Shown: positions 41,689-62,991 of the stretch, in pieces
How positions within the stretch are numbered: the stretch's first letter is position 1
Layout of the letters: every line of letters starts with the position of its first letter
NCBI RefSeq assembly: GCF_029953285.1
Contig: NZ_JASAOI010000004.1
Location: forward strand, 124,001 to 188,000
DNA from: Yinghuangia seranimata
GTDB lineage: Bacteria; Actinomycetota; Actinomycetes; Streptomycetales; Streptomycetaceae
Direction of reading: 5' to 3'
DNA length: 64,000 nucleotides
The notes under the pieces: generated by a model
Told to the model about the DNA's origin: nothing
The model's database searches: none
Seen by the model: only the letters and a program-made list of their open reading frames with translations
Position numbers and translations under genes: made by a program

Positions 41689-41728
41689 TCCCGGCCGATG
41701 GCGATGATAGGCGCGCGCTCGGCCGGGA
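41689..41728. terminator. Terminator hairpin after the kinase-helicase-nuclease operon
   Basis: TCCCGGCCGA and TCGGCCGGGA form a 10-bp perfect stem with a 20-base loop, just downstream of the nuclease stop (minus strand). Confidence 0.6.
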
Positions 41729-41755: not shown

Positions 41756-42802
41756 TCAGGCGGAGCCGTCGACCTGGTCCATGGAGGTCGTGCCGTCGCC
41801 AAGCGCCGCTGGCTCGGGGGCTGCGCCGTCGGACGCGCCGTCCAGCGGATCGCTCTGACGCTCCGACCAGGGAGCACCGCCGGAAAGGATCTCGAAGCTC
41901 GCTCGGAGTAGCCGTTGGACCGCGGGTTTGCCGAGATCGGGTTCACGCAGCCGCAGTGAAACCGGGTTGGCTCCGGCGTTGTAGCTCGGGGTCCAACTCG
42001 GCGCGAGGCCCACCCGGGTGAGTTCGTTCCGGAAGTAGTCGTAGGCGGGTGACTCTTCGTCCTTGGAACCGTCCGGGTCCGGCAGATGCAGAGTCGCTCC
42101 GTCCGCATTGGGCCATATCGGTGCCCACACGCGGCGGCCCCGGCGCACCCCGATATAGGACTTGACCGCGTAACTCACCTGTACGTCACCAAGGTTGGCC
42201 TTCACCCACGACAGAAAAGCCTCGTGGAACTGCCACGCCGAAGGGTGTTGTACGCGCCAGTCCTCCGGCGTCCGGTCTGCGGCGGTCAGTGCGCCTGCGG
42301 GAGCGTCCCCGAGATCAAGGCTCTCATTCTTGACGACCACCTCCGGGACGAGGACGACCTCATGCTGCGCCCGCCACGCACGCAGCTCAATGACGATGAG
42401 TGGTGTGTACTCGGCCAGCGCCTCCAGCGCTATGCGGAAGCGTCCCGAGGCGCTCTCCGCGACCAACACGGCGATATGCGTCTTGCCGGGCTGCCGCTTT
42501 CGATTGCGGGCCCAGTAGTCGTAGACGCGGAAGCCGTGCGACGCGTCAACCTCGCCGAGTTGGACTTCAATGCTGAAGTAGATATCGCCGCTCGTTGCCA
42601 GGATGTCCAGGCTTCCGCCGCCTGACTGGGTCTGCTCCTGTTCGACCAGCTTGACGTCGCCCAGCCCCAGTCGTCGCGGGTCGGCGGCAAGCCAGTCCTG
42701 GAGCCAGTGCTCGTTGAGGTCGAGGTCGCGCAGCCGCACGGGCGTGCCCGAGTGCACACGTCGGCCGGCTGTGGTCCCGGGTTGGCCGGCACCGTTGTTC
42801 AT
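41756..42802 (-). CDS. PD-(D/E)XK-type nuclease-like protein
   Basis: 348 residues; the ATG at 42802 overlaps the helicase stop (ATGA). Candidate nuclease core in the N-terminal half: NEHWLQDWLAADPRRLGLGDV (Glu31), then LDILATSGDIYFSIEVQLGE with Asp66 and Glu79-Val-Gln81. This D...ExQ pattern after an E...WL..P..LGL helix is typical of PD-(D/E)XK nucleases of the NucS/DUF91 kind. The C-terminal part (YAVKSYIGVRRGRRVWAPIWPN onward) is an unassigned domain. Last gene of the kinase-helicase operon. Nuclease function is inferred from motifs only. Confidence 0.6.
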   Translation of the reverse strand: MNNGAGQPGTTAGRRVHSGTPVRLRDLDLNEHWLQDWLAADPRRLGLGDVKLVEQEQTQSGGGSLDILATSGDIYFSIEVQLGEVDASHGFRVYDYWARNRKRQPGKTHIAVLVAESASGRFRIALEALAEYTPLIVIELRAWRAQHEVVLVPEVVVKNESLDLGDAPAGALTAADRTPEDWRVQHPSAWQFHEAFLSWVKANLGDVQVSYAVKSYIGVRRGRRVWAPIWPNADGATLHLPDPDGSKDEESPAYDYFRNELTRVGLAPSWTPSYNAGANPVSLRLREPDLGKPAVQRLLRASFEILSGGAPWSERQSDPLDGASDGAAPEPAALGDGTTSMDQVDGSA

Positions 42803-44940
42803 ACAGCACCCGCTTCGGTGAGGAATCGACTGGGCTTCCCTGACCATGAGACGTAGAGCCCGTCCCGCGCCCGAGTGCATGCTACGAACAGTAGGCAGCG
42901 CTCCGCGGCGAGATCGGCCTCGTGCTGGAGTTGGTCGACCTCGACAGGGGTGACGGCACGCGGGAACGGAAGGGCACCGTCGTGCGCGCCGATGACCGCC
43001 ACACACCGGAACTCCAAGCCCTTGAACGAGTGCATGGTCCCGACCTGGACGGCATCGGTGGCACCCGACCCGTCGGCGTTGAGCCGTACAGCGGGGATTC
43101 CGACCGACTTCAACTGGGCGACCGCCATGTCACCGGTGTTGTTGAACCTGCTGGTGACACCGATCTCGCCGGGCAGCACGCCAGCCTCCATCCACGCCCG
43201 AACTCTGGTGACCAAGGCCGCCAGCTCGACCGTGTCCGACACAGCATGGTGGAGCTCGGGGCCGTCCCCATGGAGGGCGGACCGGTACCCAAGCAGGGTC
43301 TCGCTGCGGTTTTCGTCCTCGAGCTGTGCGATCGGACGACCCACCAGCAGGGAGGTGGACCACCGCAGGATTTCGTGCGTACTGCGGTAGTTCTTCCTCA
43401 TCTTCGCCGACCGCCCGGCCACCGAGATGCCCAACGCCTTGAGTGAGACGCGTGAGTCGTAGATGCGCTGGTGGGGATCCCCTGCGATGAACAGGTCGTC
43501 GGGACGTACCGCGGCCGCCGCTCGTAGGAGCCGCCACTGCGCGGGGTGCAGATCCTGCGCTTCGTCGACCACGATGTGCCGGTACATCGGCCCCCGGGAC
43601 GCCAGGATGCGGGCGGCCTCGTCGCAGGTCTGCAAGTACGTCCGTTGCCCGCCCTCGCGCAGACGGCGGTGGAACTCGTGGACAGCAGCCCACACTTGGG
43701 GCCTGAGTGACTGGGGGATCTTGGTCCCGCGGCCTGCGCGGTCGGCTGCGGCATACGCCTCGAGGCTGGTGAGGTCCTGAGCCAGGATCACATGCTTGTA
43801 CTCCTGCGCCAGGAACTGCGGCGTTCCGGGAAACCCAGTGGTCTTTGCGGCCTCGGCCCAGTGGGTGTCTTCATCCCTGCCGCTGACGGGTCGCCGACCC
43901 TCGCCGCGGGCGGCCGTCACCACCCGTCCCGCGAAGGCGTCGACGGTCGTGATGTCGACGCGGCCGCGCAGCATCTCATCGGGCACCAGCGCGGCAAGCC
44001 CGCTCTTGAGTGCATGGACGAGGGCCTTCGTGTACGTGGTCAGCAAAATGCGTTCGCCGTCGCGCAAGTGCCCCATCAAGTGCTTCACCCGGTGCAAGGC
44101 CACCACGGTCTTCCCCGTGCCCGGCCCGCCGCGGACCTGCGCCGGGCCCGAGTAGCTGGGGCGATAGGCGATCTTGTGCTGCGACGGGTGCAGGAAGATT
44201 CGCCAAGCGTCGAACGGCTTGCCGAGGATGTCCCGGAGTTCGTCCGGCGCAGAGACCAGTGCGATGCGCGTGTGGGAGTTGCGGACCGCGGTGTCGAAGT
44301 CGTGGTCGTGCGCGAGTTCCGCGGCGGACTGCTGACTCTGGACCACGACGTCCTGCCACACCTCCTCGACTGAGAACCCGGCGGCCAGGTATTCGAGGAC
44401 CTCGCGCTGGTCCTGCGGAAAGTGCGGCGCGAAGACCTCCAGTTGCTCCTGGGTGGTCAGGACCCGGGCGGCTCGAAGAGTGTCCGCGTCGATGCCGAGT
44501 GCGGCCATCTCCGTGTCCGAGATCTTGGCAAACAGCCGCCGCTCGGCCGCAGGCGCGATCTGCTCGTAGGCGGGCGCCAGAACCTCCAGCTCTGCCGCGT
44601 TCCGGATCTCCACAGCCCGCGTGACCGTGTTGATGCTGACTCGCTGTTTGACAGCCCAGTCGATCGCCTTGTCGTGCGGAAGCACACGAAGCAGTGTGAA
44701 GGTGTCTCCGCGTTCAGGAGCCACCACGACACCCCGCCACATCTGGTCGATGCGGATGGTTCGAATGTGGGGGTCTCGTGCCCGGGTCAGTGTTTCGAGC
44801 TTCAGGCCGGGATGCTTGAACAAATCGTCAAGAGTCAGCGCGCCGAACTTCTCCCACGCCTCGAGTACCTCCTTCACCACCGGCTTCGGGAGCTTGCCCA
44901 TCTCCTTGAGGAATTCGATGTGGAACGCGAGTTGTGGCAT
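42799..44940 (-). CDS. UvrD-family helicase with N-terminal RelE/ParE-like domain
   Basis: 713 residues from MPQLAFHIEFLKEMG; the frame runs on to 45132 but that part is antisense of the kinase gene. Residues 1-110 resemble a RelE/ParE fold (HPGLKLETLTRARDPHIRTIRID...RGVVVAP...VLPHDKAIDWA). Superfamily 1 motifs follow: HPSQHKIAYR Q-type motif, Walker A GGPGTGKT (271-278), IVVDEAQDLHPAQW, GDPHQRIYD, and the UvrD_C_2 part with TMHSFKGLEF and VACTRARDGLYV. It unwinds DNA with ATP. Four bases separate it from the upstream kinase and 4 bp overlap joins it to the nuclease-like gene. Confidence 0.85.
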   Translation of the reverse strand: MPQLAFHIEFLKEMGKLPKPVVKEVLEAWEKFGALTLDDLFKHPGLKLETLTRARDPHIRTIRIDQMWRGVVVAPERGDTFTLLRVLPHDKAIDWAVKQRVSINTVTRAVEIRNAAELEVLAPAYEQIAPAAERRLFAKISDTEMAALGIDADTLRAARVLTTQEQLEVFAPHFPQDQREVLEYLAAGFSVEEVWQDVVVQSQQSAAELAHDHDFDTAVRNSHTRIALVSAPDELRDILGKPFDAWRIFLHPSQHKIAYRPSYSGPAQVRGGPGTGKTVVALHRVKHLMGHLRDGERILLTTYTKALVHALKSGLAALVPDEMLRGRVDITTVDAFAGRVVTAARGEGRRPVSGRDEDTHWAEAAKTTGFPGTPQFLAQEYKHVILAQDLTSLEAYAAADRAGRGTKIPQSLRPQVWAAVHEFHRRLREGGQRTYLQTCDEAARILASRGPMYRHIVVDEAQDLHPAQWRLLRAAAAVRPDDLFIAGDPHQRIYDSRVSLKALGISVAGRSAKMRKNYRSTHEILRWSTSLLVGRPIAQLEDENRSETLLGYRSALHGDGPELHHAVSDTVELAALVTRVRAWMEAGVLPGEIGVTSRFNNTGDMAVAQLKSVGIPAVRLNADGSGATDAVQVGTMHSFKGLEFRCVAVIGAHDGALPFPRAVTPVEVDQLQHEADLAAERCLLFVACTRARDGLYVSWSGKPSRFLTEAGAV

Positions 44941-44944
44941 GCGG

Positions 44945-46549
44945 TCACTCTTCCGGCGAACGGCGGTGCTCTTCGTCGTGGGCGAGGCGGATCCGGGCGA
45001 GGGCGTCGGCGATCTCCAGGCTGTCCTCGTCATCGGAGCCATGGACGACACACAGGTCGGAGTACAGCGGCTCCAGTACATGCCGAGCCTCGGCGAAACG
45101 GCCCTCGGACAGCAGCAGGAACCCGATGGCACGCCGCAGTTCGATGGCCTCTTCGCTCACGTCACTGTCCACGGAGCGCACCTGGCGCAGCACCGCCTCG
45201 AACTGCTCCAGCGCGGCGGTCACCTGCCCCAGCTCGGCCCGGCAGTGCGCTGCCTGGACGCGGCACGAGCGGGCATACTCGCTTGCCGGGCCCTCGGTCC
45301 GCGAGAACGCCTGTGCCAGCGCATCGAACTCGGGTAGGGCACTGCGGAAGTCGCCGCCGAGGAACAGGACGGCGGCGCGCTGCTGACGCAGGTCGAGCAC
45401 CTTGCGGTTGTCCGGACCGAGAGCCGCCGCGGCCGGCGGGATGACCTCGTAGAGCACCTCGGCCGCCTGGGCGAACCGCTCGTCGTCGAGGAGCGCGTCG
45501 GCGTGCGCCATCGCAGCCTTGATGTCCTCTTGGAGCTGCGCGGGGACCGGCACAGGCAGCGGGTGCGCGTTCGGGTTCACCGTGGTGGGCGCAGGAGCCG
45601 CGGTGGCGGTCGGGCGCGGCCGCGGTGCGTACGGCTGTCGGTACACCCGGGTCGGGTCAGGAACCCCCGGCTGCCCGGCCTCATGAGGCTCTGGTGTCGA
45701 CCCGGCCGGCGGCACGAACGGAAACAGCCGCTCGTGCACCTCCTGCGTGTCGACGGGACGCCGCTCCGGCCGCTTGCGCAAAAGGTGGAGGACCAGCTCC
45801 TCCAGCTCTTCGGGGACGTCGGGGCGCAGCTCGCGGAGTGGAGTCGGTGCCGCTTGCACATGTTGCAACATGCGCGCGAAATCGCTGCTGCCATCGAACA
45901 GCGTTTTTCCAGAGAGGAGTTCGTGGAGCACGCACCCCAGCGCGTACAGGTCGCTTTGCGGAGTGATGCGCGCCGCCTGGACCTGCTCCGGCGACATGTA
46001 GTGGCTGGTGCCGACGGGGCTGCCGGTCGCGGTGAGCTTGGTGACGTCGGTCCGCATGATGGCGGCGATACCGAAGTCCAGCACCTTCACCGTGCCGTCG
46101 CGCGCCACCATGATGTTGCTCGGCTTCAGGTCACGGTGGATGACCGGGACCGCGTGGGCGTGCGACAGGACGGTGCACACCTGTGCGCCCACAGCGGCGG
46201 CCCACGAGATCGGGAGCGGGGCAGCGGGGTCGATGTAGTCGTGGAGTGGGACGCCGTCCACCAGCTCCATGACCAGGTAGAGGTTCTCGTGGGACGCGTC
46301 GAGCACCGCGTCGAAGACCTGGGGGACGCCAGGGTGTTGGATGCGGGCCGTGATGCGTGCCTCGCGGCGGAACCGCTTGGCGAACTCCTCCGCAAGCTCG
46401 GGGGACGAGCCGACCACGGCCTGGCGGATGAGCTTGACGGCGACCGGGCGGTCAAGCACGCGGTCGAAGCCGCGGTAGACGTCGCCCATGCCGCCGTGGC
46501 TCAGCGGTTGGACGAGCTCGTAGCGGTTCGAGATCACTTGCGGCGGCAC
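44945..46549 (-). CDS. Soluble Ser/Thr protein kinase with C-terminal TPR-like region
   Basis: 534 residues from the GTG at 46549 (VPPQVISNRYELVQPL), chosen for GGGGGA upstream; ATG at 46606 is possible but off the kinase domain. Glycine loop SHGGMGDVY, Lys39, HRDLKPSN with Asp140, DFG 158-160. A Pro-rich linker (residues 280-340) leads to a helical repeat region (about 345-530) with TPR-like spacing. There is no transmembrane segment, unlike the kinase at 11962-13698. It heads an operon with a helicase and a nuclease-like gene, which suggests regulation of a DNA-processing or defence function. Confidence 0.82.
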   Translation of the reverse strand: MPPQVISNRYELVQPLSHGGMGDVYRGFDRVLDRPVAVKLIRQAVVGSSPELAEEFAKRFRREARITARIQHPGVPQVFDAVLDASHENLYLVMELVDGVPLHDYIDPAAPLPISWAAAVGAQVCTVLSHAHAVPVIHRDLKPSNIMVARDGTVKVLDFGIAAIMRTDVTKLTATGSPVGTSHYMSPEQVQAARITPQSDLYALGCVLHELLSGKTLFDGSSDFARMLQHVQAAPTPLRELRPDVPEELEELVLHLLRKRPERRPVDTQEVHERLFPFVPPAGSTPEPHEAGQPGVPDPTRVYRQPYAPRPRPTATAAPAPTTVNPNAHPLPVPVPAQLQEDIKAAMAHADALLDDERFAQAAEVLYEVIPPAAAALGPDNRKVLDLRQQRAAVLFLGGDFRSALPEFDALAQAFSRTEGPASEYARSCRVQAAHCRAELGQVTAALEQFEAVLRQVRSVDSDVSEEAIELRRAIGFLLLSEGRFAEARHVLEPLYSDLCVVHGSDDEDSLEIADALARIRLAHDEEHRRSPEE

Positions 46550-46690: not shown

Positions 46691-46724
46691 GCGGCCGGGC
46701 ACCCGTGTTGGGATGCCCGGCCGC
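46691..46724. terminator. Terminator hairpin after hsdR
   Basis: GCGGCCGGGCA and TGCCCGGCCGC form a perfect 11-bp stem around a 12-base loop (CCC/GGG may extend it), 15 bp downstream of the hsdR stop. It separates the restriction operon from the kinase operon. Confidence 0.72.
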
Positions 46725-46738
46725 GGCACGCGTGTCCA

Positions 46739-49700
46739 TCAGTCCTCGACGCCTTCTTGGCGGCGGATCATCCGCCATGCGGCGCGCCGAGCGCTGCGGT
46801 TCAGCGAGTTCTTGAAACTGCGGTCGGGGCCGAAGTACTGGCGCCCCATATCGGCGATGGTGTCGATGTGGTCGGCCATCTTGTCCTCGAACACGTCGTC
46901 GAAGACCACACCGAAGTTGTCCGGGTCGTCGTTGGCGACGGCCGCGAGACGCACCTTCGGATCGGCCATAGCCTCCTCGAACGGCCGAATGACGTCCTGT
47001 TCGGTGAACTCGGTTCCGAACTTCTCGTTGAAGCGTTCGATCAGCTCCGACAGTGGTGATTTCTCCGGCTCGGCCGCGCCGCCCGTGCCGTCGCCGAAGC
47101 CGGGCATCACTGTCGGCCCTTCGGGGGAGAGGCTGAGGTCGTGCTCGCCGGTCTGCTCGACGCGCATGTGGCTCAGGTCGACTTCCCCTATGTCGACGCC
47201 GCCGTCGGCGCGGCGGGGGAGCCGGTTGAGGAGATGCCGGCCGTACAGGTAGAGGCGTTCCAGGTCGGCGTCACGGTACGGGACGATCTGCGCCAGGAAC
47301 CCATACTTGCGGACATAGTCGTTGAGGTCGGCTCGGAAGTCCTCGGCGGTTTTCTGGTCGTCCTCGTCCTCGCTGTCCGCGAGCGCGGTGAAGCGCTCGA
47401 CGGCCGGGTTGAGCAGCCGGTAAAGCTCGGCGTGCAGCCGCTCCCACTTGGCCGACGAGCCGGCGGCCTTCTGCTCGGCGGCGAGGTACGCGGCCGCGAA
47501 CTCCTGCATCTCCCGCTCGGTGAGGATCGGCGCGGACATCACCCGGCTCTGCGCGGTGTAGAGCAGGTTCGGGTCGGACGGGAGCGTCATCGCCTCTTCG
47601 AAGTACGGGCGGAAAGACTCCCTGATGTCCTCGGCGTCGTTGACGAAGTCGATGACGGCCAGGTCGCCCTGCGCCTTGCGCGGGGCGGTGCGGTTGAGAC
47701 GGGAAAGCGTCTGCACCGCAGAGATGCCGGCGAGCTTCTTGTTCACGTACATGGTGGTCAGCAGCGGCTGGTCGAAGCCCGTCTGGTACTTCTCCGCGAC
47801 GACGAGAATGCGGAACTCCTGCTGGCCCCGGCCGCCGGAGCGAGTGGCCTTGTCGTCGGCGCGGGTGTACGCGAACGCCTTCGGCAGGGCGCTTTCGGGG
47901 ATCCCGCCGTTCTCCTTGGACTCGGTGGTCTCGTCGCCCTCATAGGTGAGAGACCCCGAGAAGGCGACGAGGACGCCGAGGTCGGGGTACTTCTTGTCGT
48001 AGTCGCGGTCGCCGATGTACTGCTTGATCGCCCGCGCCATCTGCACGGCGCTCTGCCGGGATGCGGTGACGACCATCGCCTTCGCGCGGCCGCCGAGCCG
48101 CCCGCGGCTGTGCGCGATGAAGTGCTCGGTGATGATCTGCGCGTGCTGCGACACGGTCGACTCGTGGGTGAGCGCGAACCGGGCGAGCAGGCTGTTGGCC
48201 TTCTTCGGGTCCACCTCGCGCTCGTCGGGGTTCTCGTTGACCAGCTTCCAATACGTGCTGTAGGTGACGTAGTTGCGGAGCGGGTCGAGGATGAAGCCCT
48301 CTTCGATGGCTTGGCGCATCGAGTAGGTGTGGAACGGGCGGTACGTGAGCTTGCCGTCGACGGTGTCCGGCGTACCGAAGAGTTCGAGCGTCTTCGACTT
48401 CGGGGTAGCCGTGAACGCGAAGTAAGAGAGATTAGCGGCCCGGCCGCGCTGCTCGGCCTTCTGCTTGAGCTGCACGTCGACCGTGGTCTCCTCGACCCGG
48501 GCGGCGCCTTGTTCGTCATCATCGGCGTCGAGACCGAGGTTGCGGAGCGCCGCGCGGACCGCGGTGGCGGCGTCGCCCGACTGCGAGGAATGGGCCTCGT
48601 CGACAATTATCGCGAACTTGCTGCCCTGGATCTCGGTCGGATTGCGCTGGAGGTAGTCGAGGAGGGCGGGGAAGGTATGCAGCGTGACGGTGACGATCTT
48701 CCCGGTCTCACGGGAGAGCGCGTTCGCCAGTTGCTCAGACTTCGCGCCGTGCTTCTCGTCGATCTTGACGACGAGGCCGACTGTTTGCTCGAAGCTGCCG
48801 ACGGTTTCCCGGAGCTGGGAGTCCAGGTTGCGGCGGTCGGTGATGATGATGACTTTGTCGAAGACCGGGACGCCAGGTTCGAGGCCGTTGGCGGCGGCCG
48901 TTGGGTCCAGCTCGGATGGGTTGGTCGGCGTGTGCAGGTCGCTGAGCCGGTGGCCGAGCCAACCGATGGTGTTCGACTTGCCGGACCCGGCTGAGGCCAT
49001 GATCAGGTAGTTGTGGCCGGCGCCATGGGTGGCGGCGTGCGCGGTGAGCCTCTTGACGACGTCCCACTGGTGGTAGCGAGGGAAGATCGTCACCGTGTCC
49101 GTGCGGCCGCCGGGCTTCTTGGACTTGTGGACGTGGACGAAGCGTTGCAGCAAGTCGAGCCAGTTGTCCCGCTGCCAGATCTGTTCCCAGAGGTAGGCCG
49201 TTGCGTGCTGGCCGGGGACGGTGGGCGCGGGGTTGCCTTTGCCGCCAGGGAGCCCGGGGCCTGCGGAGCCCGTGTTCAAGGGCAGGAACTGGGTCTGCGC
49301 GCCACGCAGTTGCGTCGCGACAAAGACCAGATCGGGATCAACGGCGAAGTTCGCGATGACCCGACGAGCAAAGATGAGTTCCGTGGGGTCACGCTCGGAC
49401 CGGTACTGCTCCTTGGCGTTCTCGACGCCCTGGCGGGTGAGCGGGTTCTTGAGCTCGGCCGTCGCGACGGGGATCCCGTTGAGGAAGAGCGTCAGGTCAA
49501 GGCGGTTGTGCCAGTCGGCCTGCTTGGTGGCGTATTCGAGCTCACGGACAACGGTCAGCCGGTTCGCCCGATAGTTGTCCAGCGCGGAGTCATCCGGAAC
49601 CAGGTTCGGCTTGAAGTAGGCAAGCCTGATGAGGACGCCCCGGTCCTTGACCCCCTTCCGGAGGGCGTCAAGGAGTCCGTCGGTGGCGATGGCCTGATCC

Positions 49701-49930
49701 AGCCGCCTGGCATACCCACGCTGTGCTTCGTTACGGTCGCCGCCGTAGAGCGAGACAAGCTCTTCCCACTCGTCGGGTTGCGTATCCCCGATGAACTCGA
49801 AGAGCTGGGCAGTATCAAGCCCGAGGTCAGGTTGGTAGTGACGAGGGTTCCCGACGGCCCACCCACCACGCTCGACCAAGGCCGCAATGATGGCCCCGCC
49901 GAAGGTGGACTCGTCATAGACGGGACTCAT
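46739..49930 (-). CDS. hsdR: Type I restriction endonuclease subunit R
   Basis: 1063 residues, the family-normal size. N-terminal PD-(D/E)XK nuclease: Asp145 in DLTLFLNGIPVATAELKN with Glu159 and Lys161; QYRSER at about 175 is the QxxxY-like motif. Superfamily 2 motor: MASAGSGKSNTIGWLG (about residues 311-325), DEAHSSQSG, FTATPKS, YQTGFDQPLL, QTLSRLNR. It translocates unmethylated DNA and cuts it distantly. Its ATG overlaps the hsdS stop by 4 bp. Confidence 0.95.
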   Translation of the reverse strand: MSPVYDESTFGGAIIAALVERGGWAVGNPRHYQPDLGLDTAQLFEFIGDTQPDEWEELVSLYGGDRNEAQRGYARRLDQAIATDGLLDALRKGVKDRGVLIRLAYFKPNLVPDDSALDNYRANRLTVVRELEYATKQADWHNRLDLTLFLNGIPVATAELKNPLTRQGVENAKEQYRSERDPTELIFARRVIANFAVDPDLVFVATQLRGAQTQFLPLNTGSAGPGLPGGKGNPAPTVPGQHATAYLWEQIWQRDNWLDLLQRFVHVHKSKKPGGRTDTVTIFPRYHQWDVVKRLTAHAATHGAGHNYLIMASAGSGKSNTIGWLGHRLSDLHTPTNPSELDPTAAANGLEPGVPVFDKVIIITDRRNLDSQLRETVGSFEQTVGLVVKIDEKHGAKSEQLANALSRETGKIVTVTLHTFPALLDYLQRNPTEIQGSKFAIIVDEAHSSQSGDAATAVRAALRNLGLDADDDEQGAARVEETTVDVQLKQKAEQRGRAANLSYFAFTATPKSKTLELFGTPDTVDGKLTYRPFHTYSMRQAIEEGFILDPLRNYVTYSTYWKLVNENPDEREVDPKKANSLLARFALTHESTVSQHAQIITEHFIAHSRGRLGGRAKAMVVTASRQSAVQMARAIKQYIGDRDYDKKYPDLGVLVAFSGSLTYEGDETTESKENGGIPESALPKAFAYTRADDKATRSGGRGQQEFRILVVAEKYQTGFDQPLLTTMYVNKKLAGISAVQTLSRLNRTAPRKAQGDLAVIDFVNDAEDIRESFRPYFEEAMTLPSDPNLLYTAQSRVMSAPILTEREMQEFAAAYLAAEQKAAGSSAKWERLHAELYRLLNPAVERFTALADSEDEDDQKTAEDFRADLNDYVRKYGFLAQIVPYRDADLERLYLYGRHLLNRLPRRADGGVDIGEVDLSHMRVEQTGEHDLSLSPEGPTVMPGFGDGTGGAAEPEKSPLSELIERFNEKFGTEFTEQDVIRPFEEAMADPKVRLAAVANDDPDNFGVVFDDVFEDKMADHIDTIADMGRQYFGPDRSFKNSLNRSARRAAWRMIRRQEGVED

Positions 49931-51267
49931 GACACAACTCCTCGCCCGCTCGCGGTAGATACGTCGAACTGCCCAGTCACAGCGGCAGTGATGAGTGCCT
50001 GACGGCTTTCCGCTAGCAACGAGGTTTGTTGTCCCAGCAGGTCGCGAAGGCGGCGAATACGGTCCAGGGAAGTCTGAGCCTGGCTAACCATCCGTCGCTG
50101 CTCGGTGATTCTTGGTAGAGGGATCGGGAAGCTCATAATCTTGCTGCTGTTGGTCGATGCCAGATTCGTGGTGCGAGTTCCAGTGCTTTCGAAATAGCAT
50201 CGTCCGTGCACTGTCTGCGTCATGAGCGCCAGGTACTCGGCATCCAAGCGTTCTGCTTCCGGGCGCAGGGCAAAGATATGGTTCTGGTGGAGGCAGGAGG
50301 CTAGCTCACCATGCCAAACGGTCCCACGGCCGAGCTTGTCCAAGTCGCCCCCCTCGGTCATTAGGACATCACCCGCACGCAGCATGCTCCGCTCTGCCGT
50401 CGAACGTCGAACGGTGATTTCCTTCACGGAGTCGAGTTCCAGGCGGCCGGCCTGAACGTTTGCCACCCGGAGATACGGAAGCGATACGACATCGCCACTT
50501 AGGTCGCGGCCGCTGTCCACAGTCAACCCGTTTTGCAGGCGGCAGACATATCCCAATCGAACCAGCGGGCGCCCCACGTCCATTTGTGGGAGCCATGGCC
50601 ATGGGCCAATTTGGCGGGGACTCGTGAGAATTCCAGGGATGAGCGCGTCTGACACCACGGCGTAAGCCCTTTCTTCAAGAAGCTTCGCTTGGGTGGCGCG
50701 CCGGGAATTGATGCGGTCGATTCGCGCGGTCTCTGTGTCAAGGAAGTCGCCGATGCGGCGCTGCTCGTCGAGAGGCGGGACTGGGACGGGAGCATCTCCG
50801 AGGCGGTCTCGGTTGAGTTCGATCTGATTGGTTGCTCCTACTGCGAGCGCGGACAGTGTGTACACCTGGAAAGGGTGGCAGCTCAGCCAATAGTAGCAAT
50901 ATCGCGAGTCCAGAACATTCGGATTTGTGCGCACCACAGTCACGTGACTATCTGCCATGCACGGGATCTTGTCAGGTGGCGAGGAGAAGTATCCGACGCG
51001 CCCCAAAGTGCCCGTACCTGTCGAGTTGACGAGAATGTCCCGCGGGTAGAGGAGTCCCTTGAGCCGACTCAGAGGTCCCCGATGGTCGTGGTATCGAGTC
51101 CGCTCCCACTCAAGCCCGGTCTCCTGATTGGCGGCTTGGCTGATGGCGCGAACCGGCCCCGCGTCGGCATAGGTCGGTGCAGATCCGCGATTCAAATGTG
51201 TCGTCAAGTGTTTCAACGGCGCGGATGCCCAACTTGGCGGGAGGTTCACTCCAAAGATGGCGCTCAC
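49927..51267 (-). CDS. hsdS: Type I restriction specificity subunit S
   Basis: 446 residues with two target-recognition domains separated by a helical spacer: VPVPPLDEQRRIGDFLDTETARIDRINSRRATQAKLLEE ends the first, and FPIPLPRITEQRRMVSQAQTSLDRIRRLRDLLGQQTSLLAE ends the second. These two half-repeats determine the bipartite recognition sequence. GTG start overlaps the hsdM stop (GTGA). The recognition sequence cannot be read from the protein. Confidence 0.92.
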   Translation of the reverse strand: MSAIFGVNLPPSWASAPLKHLTTHLNRGSAPTYADAGPVRAISQAANQETGLEWERTRYHDHRGPLSRLKGLLYPRDILVNSTGTGTLGRVGYFSSPPDKIPCMADSHVTVVRTNPNVLDSRYCYYWLSCHPFQVYTLSALAVGATNQIELNRDRLGDAPVPVPPLDEQRRIGDFLDTETARIDRINSRRATQAKLLEERAYAVVSDALIPGILTSPRQIGPWPWLPQMDVGRPLVRLGYVCRLQNGLTVDSGRDLSGDVVSLPYLRVANVQAGRLELDSVKEITVRRSTAERSMLRAGDVLMTEGGDLDKLGRGTVWHGELASCLHQNHIFALRPEAERLDAEYLALMTQTVHGRCYFESTGTRTTNLASTNSSKIMSFPIPLPRITEQRRMVSQAQTSLDRIRRLRDLLGQQTSLLAESRQALITAAVTGQFDVSTASGRGVVS

Positions 51268-53291
51268 TCCGTCACCTCGCTCAGCAGCATCTGAATCTCG
51301 GCTTCCAGTGCTTGCAAATCCGCATCGATTTCAGTCAGCGGGCGAGGCGGGTCGTACACGTAGAAGTGGCGGGTGAACGGGATCTCATAGCCGATCTTCG
51401 TCTTCGTGTGGTCGATCCAGGCGTCCGGGACATGGGGGGCGACCTCGCGCTTGAGGTACTCCTCGACGTCCTCGTCGAGCGGGACGTTTTCGTAATCGCG
51501 CAGCTCTGTGTCGGGCTCGGGATCGCCCTTGATCTCCTGGACTTCGCCGTCAGCAGTCCGCACGCCGATGGTGTCGCGCAGTGCTTTCGTGAACGGGGCG
51601 CCGGTCGGCCAGCTCAGGCCAGCCGCCACCTGAGCATCCTTCAGTGCCAGGAATGCTTCGGACTTTGTGGACCAGGTAGAGCCGAGGAGGGGGCGTAGGG
51701 CTGCTACGAAATCGTCGGCATTCGCAAGTTTCTGGATGGGCTTTGCGTCTGCGAGCGCGGACAACGTCTCGTCGGTCAGCTCGAACCGGAGCTTGAGTGG
51801 GCGTTCGACGGTGATGCGGCGGTATCCGAAGTCCTCGTTCGGGAAGACTTTCACCTTGCCGTGCAGCGGGTGCTCGGGATCTTGCGCGACCTGGAGGGCC
51901 TCTCCATACAGTTGCGTGACCTCGGCGATGTGCTCGTCTGGGATGAACTTCCGCTTGTCGCCGAGCGACTTGCGCATCTTTTGCCAGTAGGCGCGGGCGT
52001 CCAGCAGAATGACCTTGCCCTTGTGGTCCGGCGACTTGCGGTTCGTCAGGATCCAGAAGTACGTCGAGATGCCCGTGTTGTAGAACAGCTGGTCTGGCAG
52101 TGCGACAATAGCCTCAAGCCAGTCGTTCTCCAAGATCCACTGGCGGATCTTCGACTCGCCCGACTCTGCCGCCCCGGTGAACAACGGCGAGCCATTGAAG
52201 ACGATGGCGATCCGGCTGCCGCCTCCACCGTTCCCGTCCACCGGCTTCCGCTTCGACAGCATGTGTTGCAAGAACAGCAGCGAGCCGTCGTTAATTCGCG
52301 GCAACCCTGCGCCGAAACGGCCGGAATCTCCTTGTTTCTTGTACTCGTCCTCGACCTGGCTCTGGACCTTTTTCCACTCCACGCCGAATGGGGGATTCGC
52401 CAGCATGTAGTCAAACGTTGCCTTCTCGTGTCCGTCCACGGTGAAGGAGTTTCCGAATGCAATGTTGTCGGGGTTTTGACCCTTGATCATCAAGTCTGAT
52501 CGGCAGATGGCCCACGACTCCGGGTTGAGCTCCTGTCCGTAGACCTCAACCTTGGCGGCCTTGTTGTGCTCGCGGACGAAGTCCTCGACAGCACTAAGCA
52601 TGCCACCGGTGCCGCAAGCTGGGTCCATCACTGTGCGGACGACTCCGGGAATGCCCAGTGCGTCGGCGTCCGGTGTCACCAGGAGCTTGACCATCAGCTT
52701 GATGACCTCGCGCGGAGTGAAGTGCTCACCAGCTGTCTCGTTCGAGAGCTCGGCGAACCGGCGGATCAGCTCCTCGAACAGGTAGCCCATGTTGTGGTTG
52801 AGAACGGATTTCGGGTGTAGGTCGAGGTCCACGAACTCGCTCAGCACCAGGTACAGCAGGTTCGCTCGGTCGAGCCGCCGGACCTGCTGCGCGAACTCGT
52901 ACTTCTCCAGAACTTCACGGGCGTTGTCCGAGAACGAGCCCATGTAGATCAGCAGGTTCGCAGCCGCGTGCGCAGGGTCGTCGGCGATCTTCTTGAGGGT
53001 CAGGTCGCTCTTGTTGTAGAAACGCTGACCGGATGCGCTGCGCAAGAACCTGTCGGGATCGAGATCCCGACCTGCCAGCTCCGCGGCCTTCTTGACTACT
53101 GCATCCCTTGTCGGCTCTAGGACACACTCCAGGCGTCGCAGCACGGTGAACGGCAAGATCACCTTGCCGTAGTCGGACTGCTTGTAGTCGCCGCGCAGCA
53201 GGTCGGCGACCGACCACGCCTGGTTTGCCAGCTCCGTGTGCTTGCTGCTGTTCAACGGGTCCTCGAATTCCTTCCGAACCGAGTGGGACAC
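51264..53291 (-). CDS. hsdM: Type I restriction modification methyltransferase subunit M
   Basis: 675 residues. N6-adenine methyltransferase: SAM motif DPACGTGGML (223-232), catalytic NPPF (299-302), N-terminal helical domain ANQAWSVADLLRGDYKQSDYGKVILPFTVLRRLE typical of HsdM. The C-terminal extension (from about 560) ends in a helical tail. GTG start with weak upstream site. First gene of the hsdM-hsdS-hsdR operon, all three overlapped by 4 bp. Confidence 0.93.
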   Translation of the reverse strand: MSHSVRKEFEDPLNSSKHTELANQAWSVADLLRGDYKQSDYGKVILPFTVLRRLECVLEPTRDAVVKKAAELAGRDLDPDRFLRSASGQRFYNKSDLTLKKIADDPAHAAANLLIYMGSFSDNAREVLEKYEFAQQVRRLDRANLLYLVLSEFVDLDLHPKSVLNHNMGYLFEELIRRFAELSNETAGEHFTPREVIKLMVKLLVTPDADALGIPGVVRTVMDPACGTGGMLSAVEDFVREHNKAAKVEVYGQELNPESWAICRSDLMIKGQNPDNIAFGNSFTVDGHEKATFDYMLANPPFGVEWKKVQSQVEDEYKKQGDSGRFGAGLPRINDGSLLFLQHMLSKRKPVDGNGGGGSRIAIVFNGSPLFTGAAESGESKIRQWILENDWLEAIVALPDQLFYNTGISTYFWILTNRKSPDHKGKVILLDARAYWQKMRKSLGDKRKFIPDEHIAEVTQLYGEALQVAQDPEHPLHGKVKVFPNEDFGYRRITVERPLKLRFELTDETLSALADAKPIQKLANADDFVAALRPLLGSTWSTKSEAFLALKDAQVAAGLSWPTGAPFTKALRDTIGVRTADGEVQEIKGDPEPDTELRDYENVPLDEDVEEYLKREVAPHVPDAWIDHTKTKIGYEIPFTRHFYVYDPPRPLTEIDADLQALEAEIQMLLSEVTE

Positions 53292-53349: not shown

Positions 53350-55494
53350 TCAGCCGGAGTCGTGGTCGGGCGGGAGCAGCGCGCCGGTTGTCAGGCCTGT
53401 GGCGAGGAGTGCGGCCGCATCACGGCTCGCGTCTGCGGCTCGGCTAGCTGCAGTGCGTAGCTCGCGGATTCTGCGGAACGCCTCGCCGTAGTGGCGTTGT
53501 TCATCCAACGGCAGCAACGGCACGCGCAACCGACCCGGCTGCACCTGGATCGTCGCGGTGCCCGTCGACGCCCCGGCGATGTTGTCTGTGTCGTCTAGGA
53601 AGCCGGCTAGGAACCACGCATCCAGCCGCGAGGGATCCGGACGCAGGAGCAAAAGCATCCGACCGAGCACACTTCCAGCGTCGTCCTCGCCGGCAACCCT
53701 CGCCATTGGACCGCCACCACCGGCGACCGAGCGCAGGAGGACGTCACCTTCGAGGATGATCGGCGCCGTTTCGGACGAGAGATCGGTCAGGGATCCCGAC
53801 GGAGCCTCGTCGCGTGCGATGTCGAGGGCGGTCAGCACCCGGCGTCCCTCATTCTCGGTACGCCATGCTTCCAGCGCATCATCCTTCGTGCCCGGCGTTG
53901 TCCGAAGCATTTCGATCGCGCCGCCGCGTGCCAGGTCAGCGATCGTTGCTGTACGCCACTCCCGTGGGGTGTCGCCGACGGGCTGCCAGTCCCCGTAGGA
54001 CGCTGACGCTGCAAACGAGTTCACCAATTTCGCCAGCCGATCGCGGCTCGTGCGTGCCAGCTGCGAGACCGCGGCTGGGTCAGCCGCTGTCGGAGCGACC
54101 CGGACATGCCGCGTCGGAGTCAGATCGACGACGTCATCGAGTAGATCCAGGATCGAGACTGCGCGGGCTTCGCCTGCCGTGTCTTCGAATGTGTCCGCGG
54201 CTTCCCGGAACCGCTCCCAGTGCCCGAGTACCGCGCTTGTGAGGCTGTCCCAATCCAAGCTCTCTCGACGATGGCGCGGCCGCGACGAGCCGACGGGTTC
54301 CGGGCTCGTCGTGTTGTCCTGACGTTGGCTGGCATTCGCGTCGATGAACAACACAGATCGACGCTCGGCGCCCCCGACCTCCGGCCGTTGCAGCACCCAC
54401 ACCTGAAGCCCAATATGCAGCGGCATGGATGCCCTCGCCGGAAGCCCCACGACAGCGCGAATCGCCCCAGCGCGGGTCAGTTCCGCTCGGATGCGTCGAC
54501 CCGATGTGCGGAAGGCGACCCCGGGTGGGACCAGGAACACCGCATACCCGTCGGGCTTCAGATGAGCAAGCGCGTGCTGCATCCAAGCCAGCTCCGATTC
54601 TCCGCGTGAGGGCACTCCGTACGCCCAGCGCGGGTCGTATGCCAGCTCCTCGTGCCCCCAATCCCGGTCGCCGTAAGGCGGATTGCATAGCACGCCATCG
54701 GCAATGACATCCGGAAAGGCATCCGCACGCAGGCTGTCCCCGGCACGCACACGTACCTGGGCATCCGGCGATGACAGCATCAAGCTGACGGCCGCACGCC
54801 GGGCCTGCACCGGCAGAACATCCTGCCCGTACAGCTCCGATGCGCTGCGTCGCGCCGCGGCCTCCAGGAGTGTTCCGCTTCCGCAGGCTGGATCGAGTAC
54901 GCGTACGCAGCCGACGGTCAGAAGCGACGCCATCAGTCGGGCCAGCCCAGTGGGTGTCTGATAAGCGCCGGCCGCCGCGCTGTCGTCGAGCTCCCGCTCG
55001 GCCAGTGCGTCGAGAGCGGCTTGACCGCCCTCCGCGCGTACGCACACGAGCAGAGCCCGGATGGCGGGGGCGTCGGCCGCCAAGTACCGCACCGTATCCA
55101 CGCCCGGCACGGCCTCGGCCAGGCCGGTGGCCTCGGAATTCGCACGAGCGGTCAGTGCCTTGTCCGACAGTTCCGCGAGGTCTGCCATGTCGCTCGGCGG
55201 AAGTTTGGATAGGGCGGCGACCAGGGGGAGCAGTCGGCTCACGGCTTGCGAGGCGTCCGGGTGGAGACGCAGCACCGTCCGGAGCTCGGTCACAGGTGAC
55301 GCGCCGGACGCCTGCCCTCGGGCGTCCAGCCACGTCCGTACGGCCGTCAAGTCGTAGAGCGGGCTCGCGTCGCTGCCGCCGATCGGTGCCGGAAAGTCGC
55401 CGTGGCGTCGCCGCCAGTTGCTTACGGTCGCGCGCGTCACCCCCGCGATCCGGCCGATCTCGGCAGCCGTGACCAGCGTGGCCTGGTCGGTCAC
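53350..55494 (-). CDS. HTH-N6-adenine methylase with C-terminal TRD-like domain
   Basis: 714 residues, GTG start with GAGGGGGA upstream. Residues 8-35 form a helix-turn-helix (AAEIGRIAGVTRATVSNWRRR), a feature of solitary regulatory-type methylases. SAM motif DPACGSGTLL (201-210) and NPPYGD (271-276) mark an N6-adenine methyltransferase. The C-terminal part (about 480-700) has LPLLPLDEQRHYGEAFRRIRELRTAA, the same kind of spacer as HsdS, so M and S functions seem fused. No separate restriction subunit is adjacent other than hsdR. It may be part of a defence system or act alone. Confidence 0.82.
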   Translation of the reverse strand: MTDQATLVTAAEIGRIAGVTRATVSNWRRRHGDFPAPIGGSDASPLYDLTAVRTWLDARGQASGASPVTELRTVLRLHPDASQAVSRLLPLVAALSKLPPSDMADLAELSDKALTARANSEATGLAEAVPGVDTVRYLAADAPAIRALLVCVRAEGGQAALDALAERELDDSAAAGAYQTPTGLARLMASLLTVGCVRVLDPACGSGTLLEAAARRSASELYGQDVLPVQARRAAVSLMLSSPDAQVRVRAGDSLRADAFPDVIADGVLCNPPYGDRDWGHEELAYDPRWAYGVPSRGESELAWMQHALAHLKPDGYAVFLVPPGVAFRTSGRRIRAELTRAGAIRAVVGLPARASMPLHIGLQVWVLQRPEVGGAERRSVLFIDANASQRQDNTTSPEPVGSSRPRHRRESLDWDSLTSAVLGHWERFREAADTFEDTAGEARAVSILDLLDDVVDLTPTRHVRVAPTAADPAAVSQLARTSRDRLAKLVNSFAASASYGDWQPVGDTPREWRTATIADLARGGAIEMLRTTPGTKDDALEAWRTENEGRRVLTALDIARDEAPSGSLTDLSSETAPIILEGDVLLRSVAGGGGPMARVAGEDDAGSVLGRMLLLLRPDPSRLDAWFLAGFLDDTDNIAGASTGTATIQVQPGRLRVPLLPLDEQRHYGEAFRRIRELRTAASRAADASRDAAALLATGLTTGALLPPDHDSG

Positions 55495-59091: not shown

Positions 59092-61248
59092 CTACTCCTC
59101 GTCGTTCTGGGCGTCGAGCCAGTCCACCGCGATCTCGTACAGGTTCCGCTTCCCGTCTGGGGTCCAGCGGGCCGGAGCTTGCACGGCCACTGGTGCTTCA
59201 TTCCAACCCGCCAACTCCCAGATCTTCAGCACCAGCTTGTTGGCGGTATACGTCTGGCCGTCGTATGCCCACAGCAGGGGCCGGGTCCGCTCGTTCTGCC
59301 ACGTGGCCTGACCGCGGGCCGGATCCTCGGCGAGCCAGGAGTTCACCGCCTCGGCCTCTGGGACGTTCCCTGCGACGTACGTCAGGCGCGTGCCCGCAGG
59401 GAGAATCTCCGCATTGACGAGCGTTGGAACCGTGGGCGGACGGCGCGTCTGCCGCGCCGTGCGCGCCGGAGGCTGGTAGTCCTCGGGCAGTTCAGGGACG
59501 GGGCCTCCGCGGCGAACATCGCGCACCACCGCCTCAGCGAGTGCTTTGCAGCGCTTCTCGTTGGTGAAGGTGCTGGTGAGAAATGAATTCGTGCCGAACT
59601 CGGAGTCGACGTGGTGGATCAGCCAGGACAGCACCGACTCGGTGAGGGCAGGCACCGACTTGAGAATCGGCGTGATGTCGTAGTCGGGCTCGTCGATCTC
59701 GTCGGTGTCGATCAGCTGGAAGACGAGGTGGGCGACAATGAGGTCGCCGCGCTTGGAAACGTCGACGGCGCGCCCACGTAGAGCCTTCCGGGACGCGTCG
59801 AGGGCGTCGCCGACCGCACGCTGGATCAGCACGCTGTGCCAGATCCGAAGGGCACTCGGCCGTTCGCCGAACAGGCGCTGGTACGCGCCGCTCGATCCAC
59901 GCTCCCAGAGAAGGTCGGTGCTCTTGTTGGCACGTACCGCGAGTTCGGGTGTGTTGTGGGCGCAGGCCAGGGCGATGGCGGCGTGCTCGACCGAGCAACC
60001 GGCCTCGGGGGCCGGATCGGCCTCGCCGCGTTTTACGACGTAGGCCTTCTGGAGCATGACGTCGAAGTCGCTCCGGATGTCTGCCTGGGTTGGGTCAAGG
60101 GCGATGAAGTCGCGTTCCGAGACGTCGTTCTGGGTGTTGGTCGTCTCGGTGATACGGGCCGCGTACGAGCCCCGCTCGGCGCCGAGCGAGATCACCTTGA
60201 GTGAGACGTCGGCGAACTCGACCGTCTCCGGGTGGTGCTCCATCGCCTTCGCGATCTCGGTAACAGTCTGCGCGCCGTTGACGATGCTGGCGCGCTTGAG
60301 CGACAGCACGACGGGTTCGTTCGGCACGCGGCGCCCCGGCCAGTCGGGGACGATCTCGTCACACAGGATCGTGATGCCGTTGTTGAAGTACCAGAAGTTG
60401 TCGGGTTCACCGGTGAGCGTCTGCTGGATCCCCGTGTTGATCCGGGTCGCCCCGAGCGACTGGCGGATGTTCTCGGTGAAGAGCTTGGAGCCGTGCTCGT
60501 CGTACCACTCGGCCACCTGGCCGGCGGAGACCGAGCCTTGGTAGGCGGGAAAGGGGAGGTCACGCTTGATCCACTGTGGCATCCGCGCCGTGATGTGAAC
60601 CGGATCGGGTGAGCGGTCGTCCCGGAGCTGTTGGAGGAGTTCAGCCGCTCCCATGAGGCGGTAGTCCAGCATCGGGCCGTGCCCGTAGTGGTCGTCGACA
60701 GCGCGGTTCAGGATCGCCTTGGTGTCGTCGTGGAGCGGATCGTTGCCGACGACGGCGACAACCAGGGTGATCTTGAGGTTGGTGTCACGCAGAGCGGCGT
60801 CGAGCTTCTGTGTGAAGGGCGTGATTCGGTCGTTGAACAGATCGAATTTCCGGTGCTCCAACAGGTGGAGCCCTTCTATGAAGGCTCGTGCGGCGTCCGT
60901 CTGGAAGCCGGCTGTGCCCGAGTCCTTCCACTTGGCCTGGACGAGCCACACCCGTGAGGCCTCGGTTACGGCGACCGCGTCGATGCCGTTGTCGTGGCTC
61001 CCGTCGACGACGGCGGCGGCACAGTCCTCGTGGGCCCAGCCGGTGACGTGTCGGATCGCGGTTGCCGCGACGGCACGGGACAGAAAGGCGCGATCGCGTT
61101 CCGGCTCCGAATTGCGTTGCAGGTCGGACTCGTCGATGAGGCCGCGATACGTGGCGATGAGTGCCGAGCGCATCGTGTACAACTCCTGAGGCGTGACGCG
61201 CACTGGCCCCCGACCCTTGTTGCTCACCGTACCCCCGACGTTGCGCAT
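59092..61248 (-). CDS. AIPR family (abortive infection phage resistance) protein
   Basis: 718 residues from the ATG at 61248; a GTG at 61227 has a better GGGGG site and is an alternative, and the frame beyond 61293 has no support. Residues 85-106 read SHDNGIDAVAVTEASRVWLVQAKW, an Mrr-like endonuclease pattern (Asp90, Gln104-Ala-Lys106). The AIPR domain is from about 250 on, with NTGIQQTLTGEPDNFWYFNNGITILCDE, the family signature. AIPR proteins cause abortive infection in some phage defences. Divergent from the TIGR02677-type gene. Confidence 0.83.
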   Translation of the reverse strand: MRNVGGTVSNKGRGPVRVTPQELYTMRSALIATYRGLIDESDLQRNSEPERDRAFLSRAVAATAIRHVTGWAHEDCAAAVVDGSHDNGIDAVAVTEASRVWLVQAKWKDSGTAGFQTDAARAFIEGLHLLEHRKFDLFNDRITPFTQKLDAALRDTNLKITLVVAVVGNDPLHDDTKAILNRAVDDHYGHGPMLDYRLMGAAELLQQLRDDRSPDPVHITARMPQWIKRDLPFPAYQGSVSAGQVAEWYDEHGSKLFTENIRQSLGATRINTGIQQTLTGEPDNFWYFNNGITILCDEIVPDWPGRRVPNEPVVLSLKRASIVNGAQTVTEIAKAMEHHPETVEFADVSLKVISLGAERGSYAARITETTNTQNDVSERDFIALDPTQADIRSDFDVMLQKAYVVKRGEADPAPEAGCSVEHAAIALACAHNTPELAVRANKSTDLLWERGSSGAYQRLFGERPSALRIWHSVLIQRAVGDALDASRKALRGRAVDVSKRGDLIVAHLVFQLIDTDEIDEPDYDITPILKSVPALTESVLSWLIHHVDSEFGTNSFLTSTFTNEKRCKALAEAVVRDVRRGGPVPELPEDYQPPARTARQTRRPPTVPTLVNAEILPAGTRLTYVAGNVPEAEAVNSWLAEDPARGQATWQNERTRPLLWAYDGQTYTANKLVLKIWELAGWNEAPVAVQAPARWTPDGKRNLYEIAVDWLDAQNDEE

Positions 61249-61404
61249 TCCGCTGTGGGCTGCCGAGCCTAGCCCTGCATCAGACGAGTACATGACGGCA
61301 TTCCGGTCCTGCTCGGTCCGAAGTGGGGGCAACAGCAGGATATTTCGGGCAGTTGGGCAACTCGCCGGATGGTTCGCCCTGTGGCGCTCTACCCTGTCGA
61401 CGGT

Positions 61405-62991
61405 ATGGGGGACGAGAACCCGCCCGACGCGGCGGCAGTCGACCAGCCGGAAGAGGAAGACCGCTCCCGGCTGAGCGCCTACGCCTACCTGACTGCTCCA
61501 GAGCGGGACGACTACCTCGCGGTCATGCGGCTGTTCACCGGCAGCCTGTTGGCGGATCTCGCTGCGCCGGACGTGGCCGCTCGGCTGCCGCAGGTGGGCC
61601 CGGACGTGGTCGTCGCCCGGCTCGACCAGCTCGTGGAGTGGGGCAACCTGCTGCGCAGCACCCACCGGGTCAAAGCCCACAGCATCAGCGAGTTCCAGCG
61701 CGCCAGGTCGCGGTACCAGGTGTCCAAACTCGGCGAGCGCGTGCAACGGGGTGTGGACGACGTCCTCGGGCACGCCGACGCCGCTCGTGAGGTCGCCGCC
61801 GAGATGCTGGGCATGGTCGACCGCGGACTGGCCGAGCTCGCCGACGCCGTCGAACTTCCGGGTGGCGTAGGCGCGATGGATCCGGAGCACGCTCGGGACA
61901 CCATCGCCACGGTGTTCGTCCAGTTCGGGGAGTTCGCCGAGTCGGTACGCGACTTCTACGCCTACCTCGGCGACGTGCTTTCCCGCTACGACCTTGACGG
62001 CGCCGAGTACCGGGGCTTCAAGGAACTGCTCCTCGATTACGTCGAGGCGATACGCGAGGACGTGTCCTATCACGCGCCCCGCATCGAGGACTCGCTGCGC
62101 ATCCTGGCACCGCACCTACCCCGACTGCTGCGTCGCATCGACGAGGCCAGCCCCGGCCTGTCCGGTCTGGAGTCCGTGGGCGGCGCACGCGTCCAGCGCA
62201 CGCAAGGCCGGGACCTCGCGGACTGGGAGGCGCTGCGGGGCTGGTTCACCGCGGCCGGAGACGCGTCGGCGGACGGCAGCCAGGTCGAGCAGCTGCGCGA
62301 CGCGACACTGCGGGCGCTGTCCTCCCTACTGATGAACGCGAAGCGGATGATCCGGTCGTCCCACTCCGGCCAGTCGCGGCGCGGATACCTGCTCAGGTTG
62401 GCGCGGTGGTTCGACCGGGCGGACGAGGCCACCGCCCACGACCTCTTCGCCGCCGCGTTCGGCCTGTACCCGGCACGGCACCTCGCCTACCCCGGGGACC
62501 TCGACCGCCCCGAACCCGCGACCACGAGCTGGTGGACGGGGCCTGTGGTCGATGTTCCGGTCGCGCTTCGTGAGCGGGGCGAGCGCATAGCCCGCGGCAG
62601 GGCGGCGGCGGTCGAAGACCATGCGGCGCAAAAGGAGAAGCTGCTGTCCGAAGCGGCTGAGCGGGCACGGCTCAGGGCGGCGGCCGCCGCCGAGTTGCGG
62701 TCCGCGGCAGGTCGGCTGGAGGACATACGTCTTTCGGGCGCGGCGCACAGCCTGCTCCTGGAACTCCTCGCCACCGCCTTGGGCAACGCACAGGCCGGCG
62801 CGCTTGACGGTGCCGAAGCCCGTGTGCCCCACCTCGGGATCGGCCTGCGGGTCCGGCCCGTGCCAGGCTACGTACTTCGGTTGGCCACCGCGGAAGGCCA
62901 CTTCGAACTCGAAGGCCTGGCGTTGGACATCGTGGGAGCCGACGCCGACGAACTCGCGTCTGCGAACCGCCTGACCGGGACCGGTGACTGA
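61405..62991 (+). CDS. TIGR02677/DUF2397 family protein (Wadjet JetA-type)
   Basis: About 528 residues from ATG 61405; an ATG at 61369 is also possible. SAYAYLTAPERDDYLAVMRLF at the start, FAESVRDFYAYLGDVLSRYDLD, and GYLLRLARWFDRADEATAHDLFAAAFGLYPARHL are typical of DUF2397 proteins. In Wadjet systems the A subunit is a kleisin-like part of an SMC-type complex that cleaves plasmids. Its stop overlaps the DUF2398 start by one base. The SMC-like and TOPRIM-like partners should lie beyond the window. Confidence 0.8.
   Translation: MGDENPPDAAAVDQPEEEDRSRLSAYAYLTAPERDDYLAVMRLFTGSLLADLAAPDVAARLPQVGPDVVVARLDQLVEWGNLLRSTHRVKAHSISEFQRARSRYQVSKLGERVQRGVDDVLGHADAAREVAAEMLGMVDRGLAELADAVELPGGVGAMDPEHARDTIATVFVQFGEFAESVRDFYAYLGDVLSRYDLDGAEYRGFKELLLDYVEAIREDVSYHAPRIEDSLRILAPHLPRLLRRIDEASPGLSGLESVGGARVQRTQGRDLADWEALRGWFTAAGDASADGSQVEQLRDATLRALSSLLMNAKRMIRSSHSGQSRRGYLLRLARWFDRADEATAHDLFAAAFGLYPARHLAYPGDLDRPEPATTSWWTGPVVDVPVALRERGERIARGRAAAVEDHAAQKEKLLSEAAERARLRAAAAAELRSAAGRLEDIRLSGAAHSLLLELLATALGNAQAGALDGAEARVPHLGIGLRVRPVPGYVLRLATAEGHFELEGLALDIVGADADELASANRLTGTGD

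Follow-up and report, generated by a model that had tools for sequence, protein, structure and literature searches.

Type I restriction enzymes such as EcoKI (HsdRMS) are usually described as self-contained. Other described systems resemble further parts of the locus considered here: BREX type 2, or Pgl, joins a methyltransferase (PglX) to a Ser/Thr kinase (PglW), Gabija is made up of an OLD nuclease (GajA) and a UvrD helicase (GajB), and the Type I enzyme EcoprrI carries the anticodon nuclease PrrC. The RelE fold is known from toxins such as YoeB and from the CRISPR-linked RelE protein Cami1 (8phj). The locus in Yinghuangia seranimata was analysed within a window of 64,000 nucleotides, the whole stretch of DNA under study, using mechanical gene calls; the features given below between 41689 and 55494 lie on its reverse strand. 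A first-pass annotation had singled out three of its genes as a candidate defence or DNA-damage system, namely a soluble Ser/Thr kinase, a UvrD-like helicase with a RelE-type N-terminus and a NucS-like nuclease.

The coordinates, strand and spacing of this trio were re-derived as originally given, including two bounding hairpins (46691-46724 and 41689-41728). The kinase runs from a GTG start at 46549 to a stop at 44945 and is followed after 4 bp (ccgc) by the ATG of the helicase at 44940. The TGA of the helicase and the ATG of the nuclease overlap as ATGA at 42799-42802. Pfam matches agree with the domains proposed for the kinase (44945-46549; Pkinase E 3.6e-49, C-terminal TPR_12 E 3.5e-8) and for the SF1 helicase (42799-44940; UvrD N E 2e-21, UvrD C E 4.7e-15). 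However, a complete Type I restriction operon (46739-53291) lies directly upstream of the trio. The gene 190 bp upstream of the kinase is hsdR (46739-49930; SWI2_SNF2 E 1.1e-17, HSDR_N E 1.5e-11, T1R_D3-like E 6.4e-12), preceded by the overlapping hsdS (49927-51267; Methylase_S E 1e-13, PADLOC Specificity_I E 6e-124) and hsdM (51264-53291; HsdM_N E 1.7e-25, N6_Mtase E 1.6e-58). As in EcoKI, the full hsdM-hsdS-hsdR operon is present with the expected domains in all three subunits: HsdM_N and N6_Mtase in HsdM, target recognition in HsdS, and an HSDR_N nuclease with an SF2 motor in HsdR. By gene and domain content, the locus thus encodes a predicted Type I restriction-modification system. Beyond it lies a second methyltransferase, MTaseB (53350-55494; N6_Mtase Pfam E 1.2e-37, PADLOC MTase_I E 1.6e-260), which is the first gene of the conserved set described below. 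The first-pass annotation was right in what it observed but misplaced the boundaries of the unit, as the trio is the tail of a larger anti-phage island. A defence role is supported, while the neighbourhoods lend no support to the alternative of DNA repair.

It is this upstream operon together with MTaseB, and not the helicase-nuclease pair, that forms the constant partner of the kinase, the fifth gene of the set. An HsdR homologue was found in 40 of 249 Streptomycetaceae genomes, at 41 loci. At the 24 loci where HsdR is at least 73% identical (own genome included), the kinase is always downstream on the same strand (24/24), at a distance of 0.1-4.2 kb except in genome G221, where it is about 14.5 kb. 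Six further loci with HsdR at 49-54% identity have the kinase approximately 0.2 kb after HsdR (6/6), whereas 11 loci outside this clade (HsdR 38-42%) have neither kinase nor MTaseB at this position. The kinase is therefore found downstream of HsdR in 30/30 loci within the clade versus 0/11 outside, a contrast among Streptomycetaceae loci only that represents one evolutionary event and not 41 independent ones. The kinase-bearing HsdRs form one branch (support 99/98), with a single change in all bootstrap trees, and MTaseB is upstream of HsdM in every clade stretch that reaches that far. Within one HsdR clade, then, MTaseB, HsdM, HsdS, HsdR and the kinase are inherited as a set of five genes. 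Against a functional tie of the kinase to restriction, HsdR and the kinase are 1-4 kb apart in many relatives, with other genes in between; in L024 (6814-8237), L031 (6802-8209) and others these appear by eye to be a regulator-like and a small ATP-binding-like gene.

Distances between the proteins tell the same story. Across 24 genomes the HsdR-kinase correlation is 0.83, with a partial r of 0.81 after removal of rpoB distance (Mantel p 0.0005), which is close to the value of 0.84 for HsdM and HsdR, while kinase and helicase give a partial r of 0.56 (p 0.002). HsdS, the negative control, has distances uncorrelated with the others; it is the most variable subunit (mean distance 0.65-0.69 versus 0.11-0.20 for HsdR, the range depending on the set compared) and is reshuffled between strains. 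The catalytic residues of the kinase (a VAVK/VAIK-type Lys, HRD, and DFG or DLG) are kept in the homologues examined, and the kinase is retained at loci without the helicase. Overall, the kinase is part of the restriction system. Three of the loci without a RelE-UvrD helicase (L138, L148, and L149) have a large DUF4011/PDC-S37 helicase-nuclease gene downstream of the kinase, and a gene of the same type lies near MTaseB in L038.

The G+C-rich hairpin 3' of hsdR (46691-46724) has a 15-bp stem, an MFE of -37.4 kcal/mol and a z-score of -3.8, and the hsdR-kinase gaps of close relatives hold similar hairpins. It is a probable terminator or attenuator between the restriction operon and the kinase unit; given its strength, hsdR and the kinase are probably on separate transcripts. 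Neither this hairpin nor the one at the 3' end of the island (41689-41728; z -5.2) has a U-tract, and around the operon sigma-70 promoters and U-tract terminators were not above chance. Third-position G+C is mostly 0.9 or more left of 41.7 kb but drops to 0.66-0.88 in the island genes, as would fit an island that was acquired and that has its left edge next to the nuclease stop; no tRNA attachment site was found within the window. Farther out, the same island holds an AIPR/AbiU-like gene (59092-61197) and a Wadjet type II JetA2 gene (61369-62991). In such a setting, an ordinary Type I system could simply have as its neighbor an independent abortive-infection unit functionally unconnected to restriction, be it the kinase-helicase-nuclease trio as first drawn or a Gabija-like pair. 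Such a juxtaposition would account for the hairpin and 190-bp gap separating hsdR from the kinase, for the nearby AIPR/AbiU and JetA2 genes, and for the kinase also being found without HsdMSR; the best PADLOC model for the helicase is moreover GajB (E 4e-31), and an OLD nuclease sometimes follows it. We nonetheless consider it unlikely, as it sits poorly with the clade-wide linkage of the kinase to HsdR, with HsdR-kinase co-evolution in excess of species distance and with the persistence of the kinase where the helicase is missing.

The helicase itself (motifs GGPGTGKT, DEAQD, and GDPHQR) is of interest for its N-terminus. An AlphaFold2 model of residues 1-260 reached a pLDDT of 82.6 and, when searched against PDB folds, returned almost only RelE/YoeB/YafQ/HigB/ParE toxins among the 50 matches listed, mostly at probabilities of 0.9-1.0, with a target TM of up to 0.71 and a best E of 5e-3. 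Residues ~1-125 (44566-44940) are accordingly modelled as a RelE/YoeB/YafQ fold, in agreement with the RelE/ParE-type fold that the first-pass annotation had proposed for the first 110 residues. Sequence profiles did not detect this fold: Pfam gave nothing on the N-terminus, a PDB sequence search with this region and with the nuclease domain returned nothing useful, and profile-profile comparison of the RelE domain with a YoeB alignment gave no result, the alignments being too shallow. E49, R69, and H89 are invariant in 33/33 helicase homologues, and also in the E. coli and Haematobacter plasmid copies. Compared with the catalytic Glu, Arg, and His of YoeB, R69 and H89 line up with the Arg and His in each of three alignment modes, while E49 is one column off the Glu, so that any RNase activity of the domain is putative.

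Scanning 84,980 species genomes yielded 58 helicase loci. In Streptomyces, 24 loci have a helicase at 67-69% identity: 21 of these have the kinase upstream (of the remaining three, two are truncated by contig ends), and 19 have HsdR within reach. Of the synteny implied by the first-pass trio, the kinase-helicase part therefore recurs elsewhere. Conversely, the helicase is present in about 12 of the 24 close HsdR loci, and at least three gains or losses are needed on the HsdR tree. It is a mobile partner, frequent but separable from the five-gene set. It also occurs after McrB-McrC with a convergent MTaseB, after DrmB-DrmC of DISARM and, on E. coli, Haematobacter, and Streptomyces plasmids (L010, L011, and L014), after a very large gene and a DruE-like helicase; the very large gene is a methyltransferase in L010 and L011, and a small gene intervenes in L010. 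If the proposed function is correct, this helicase, common to McrBC, DISARM, and Druantia-like loci, would be a general backup effector, for which no description was found in the literature that could be searched, mostly outside subscription journals.

The nuclease (41756-42802), the last gene of the island, comprises a candidate NucS-like PD-(D/E)xK domain and a C-terminal domain. It has no Pfam match and only a weak Rpn-type match (TIGR01784, E 0.007), but a structure model of moderate quality (pLDDT 70) found NucS/EndoMS as its best PDB fold matches (2vld E 8.6e-4, 5gke E 1.0e-3, probability 1.0), in agreement with the fold first suggested for it. The predicted active site reads D66...E79-x-Q81, with Gln or Met replacing the usual catalytic Lys throughout the aligned relatives. 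The trio as a conserved unit is ruled out by the absence of this nuclease from all 58 helicase loci. Likewise, the nuclease was rejected as a gene of the lineage, since no close homologue was found in the 249 Streptomycetaceae or 396 phylum-wide genomes; three weak Streptomycetaceae matches are by eye unrelated proteins, e.g., an AraC-type regulator and an NRPS. For this third gene, the lack of synteny elsewhere that the first-pass annotation had named as refuting its proposal was thus observed. Its close form was seen only in this genome among those searched. Of its more distant relatives, one overlaps the HsdR end in G322 (L167), one comes after a DruE-like helicase in G590 (L168), and one lies directly 3' of a BREX system's BrxL on a viral contig (L182 3887-6813). 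The nuclease is thus a locus-specific add-on that recurs with restriction-type systems and is not a member of this one.

The pairing of a helicase with a nuclease that the first-pass annotation envisaged holds in part, as 10 of 37 close helicase copies have a nuclease as their next co-oriented gene, but from other families (OLD in 6/37, GmrSD in 4/37). This occasional filling of the slot after the helicase, and the ATGA coupling of an SF1 motor to a NucS-like nuclease in this genome, would suit a small AddAB/RecBCD-type enzyme that degrades the fragments left by HsdR, with the RelE fold merely docking and the kinase tuning expression. We think this improbable, given that most close copies have no recognised co-oriented nuclease adjoining the helicase and that R69, H89, and D90 are invariant from Streptomyces to E. 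coli plasmids, which suggests more than docking.

MTaseB combines in a single chain an HTH, an N6-adenine methyltransferase (DPACGSG, NPPY) and an HsdS-like C-terminus. Its SAM motif is kept in nearly all contexts, but the catalytic NPPY/F is intact only in the close Type I loci (14/14) and in some other contexts. Beside McrBC, the motif reads DPPV, DPPA, EPPA, or similar in 10/11, as if the protein had been turned into a reader. MTaseB followed by a homologous kinase without HsdMSR was observed alone or in DISARM-like loci (L260, L261, L263, L265, L038, other Actinomadura loci, L041, and L066). A more speculative idea, which we hold only tentatively and think somewhat doubtful, is that MTaseB and the kinase are a portable methylation-sensing relay, present by itself in some Streptomyces and Actinomadura, on either side of HsdMSR here and within DISARM-like loci in Nocardiopsis. 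It would drive effectors that can be exchanged, the RelE-UvrD helicase being one of them, and MTaseB lacking the catalytic NPPY Asn in several contexts would act as a reader, not a writer.

From the observed linkage we infer, with slightly better than even confidence, that a kinase is built into this Type I system and that its backup effectors can be swapped. The methylation state of DNA entering the cell would be read by HsdRMS and by MTaseB, which has a recognition domain of its own. An engaged or inhibited restriction complex would be sensed by the TPR kinase, which would relay this by phosphorylation, its target being either HsdR or the downstream effector; phosphorylation of EcoKI HsdR has been reported in work cited in PMC12707154. 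The helicase-nuclease pair would serve as backup, with the motor processing DNA that is broken or lacks modification and the RelE domain cutting ribosome-bound mRNA when restriction fails, a logic that may be comparable to that of a Type I enzyme carrying the RNase PrrC. The constancy of the kinase and the variability of the effectors point to a shared relay whose outputs can be exchanged. If this is true, a kinase as constant as HsdM would tie protein phosphorylation to restriction and would offer a direct way to test how cells alleviate or escalate restriction during infection, a long-standing question.

No published description of this gene combination was found in the same searchable literature, and BREX-2, MADS, and Gabija were each considered and rejected as classifications on their defining scores or partners. 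The methyltransferase-kinase logic is that of BREX type 2, but here HsdR is present, the PglW model matches the kinase domain only (59.9 bits versus a cut-off of 990), and no PglZ or BrxC-type ATPase was recognised among the genes examined. MADS, a methylation-associated defence system with the kinase MAD6, was compared through profile models only and gives weak to moderate matches (mad6 on the kinase, 4e-70; mad2 on MTaseB, 5e-26; mad1 on its HTH, residues 8-63, 1e-5; mad5 on HsdS, 6e-27), but the kinase scores 149.8 bits against the curated MAD6 cut-off of 460 and true HsdM and HsdR are present here. Gabija shares a UvrD-type helicase, which its GajB models match best, and an OLD nuclease adjoins in some relatives; it differs in that the present helicase has a RelE N-terminus and an attached kinase, and the nuclease of the trio is NucS-like, not OLD. 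PrrC had no match among the family searches and would share with this locus an RNA-cutting backup on a Type I enzyme, but the putative RNase here is a RelE fold fused to a helicase. Toxins such as YoeB and RelE, like Cami1, share the predicted fold of helicase residues 1-125, although here it is fused to an SF1 motor and no antitoxin gene was noted adjoining. From Type I restriction-modification itself, this locus differs by a fused second methyltransferase and a Ser/Thr kinase that are constant in the lineage.
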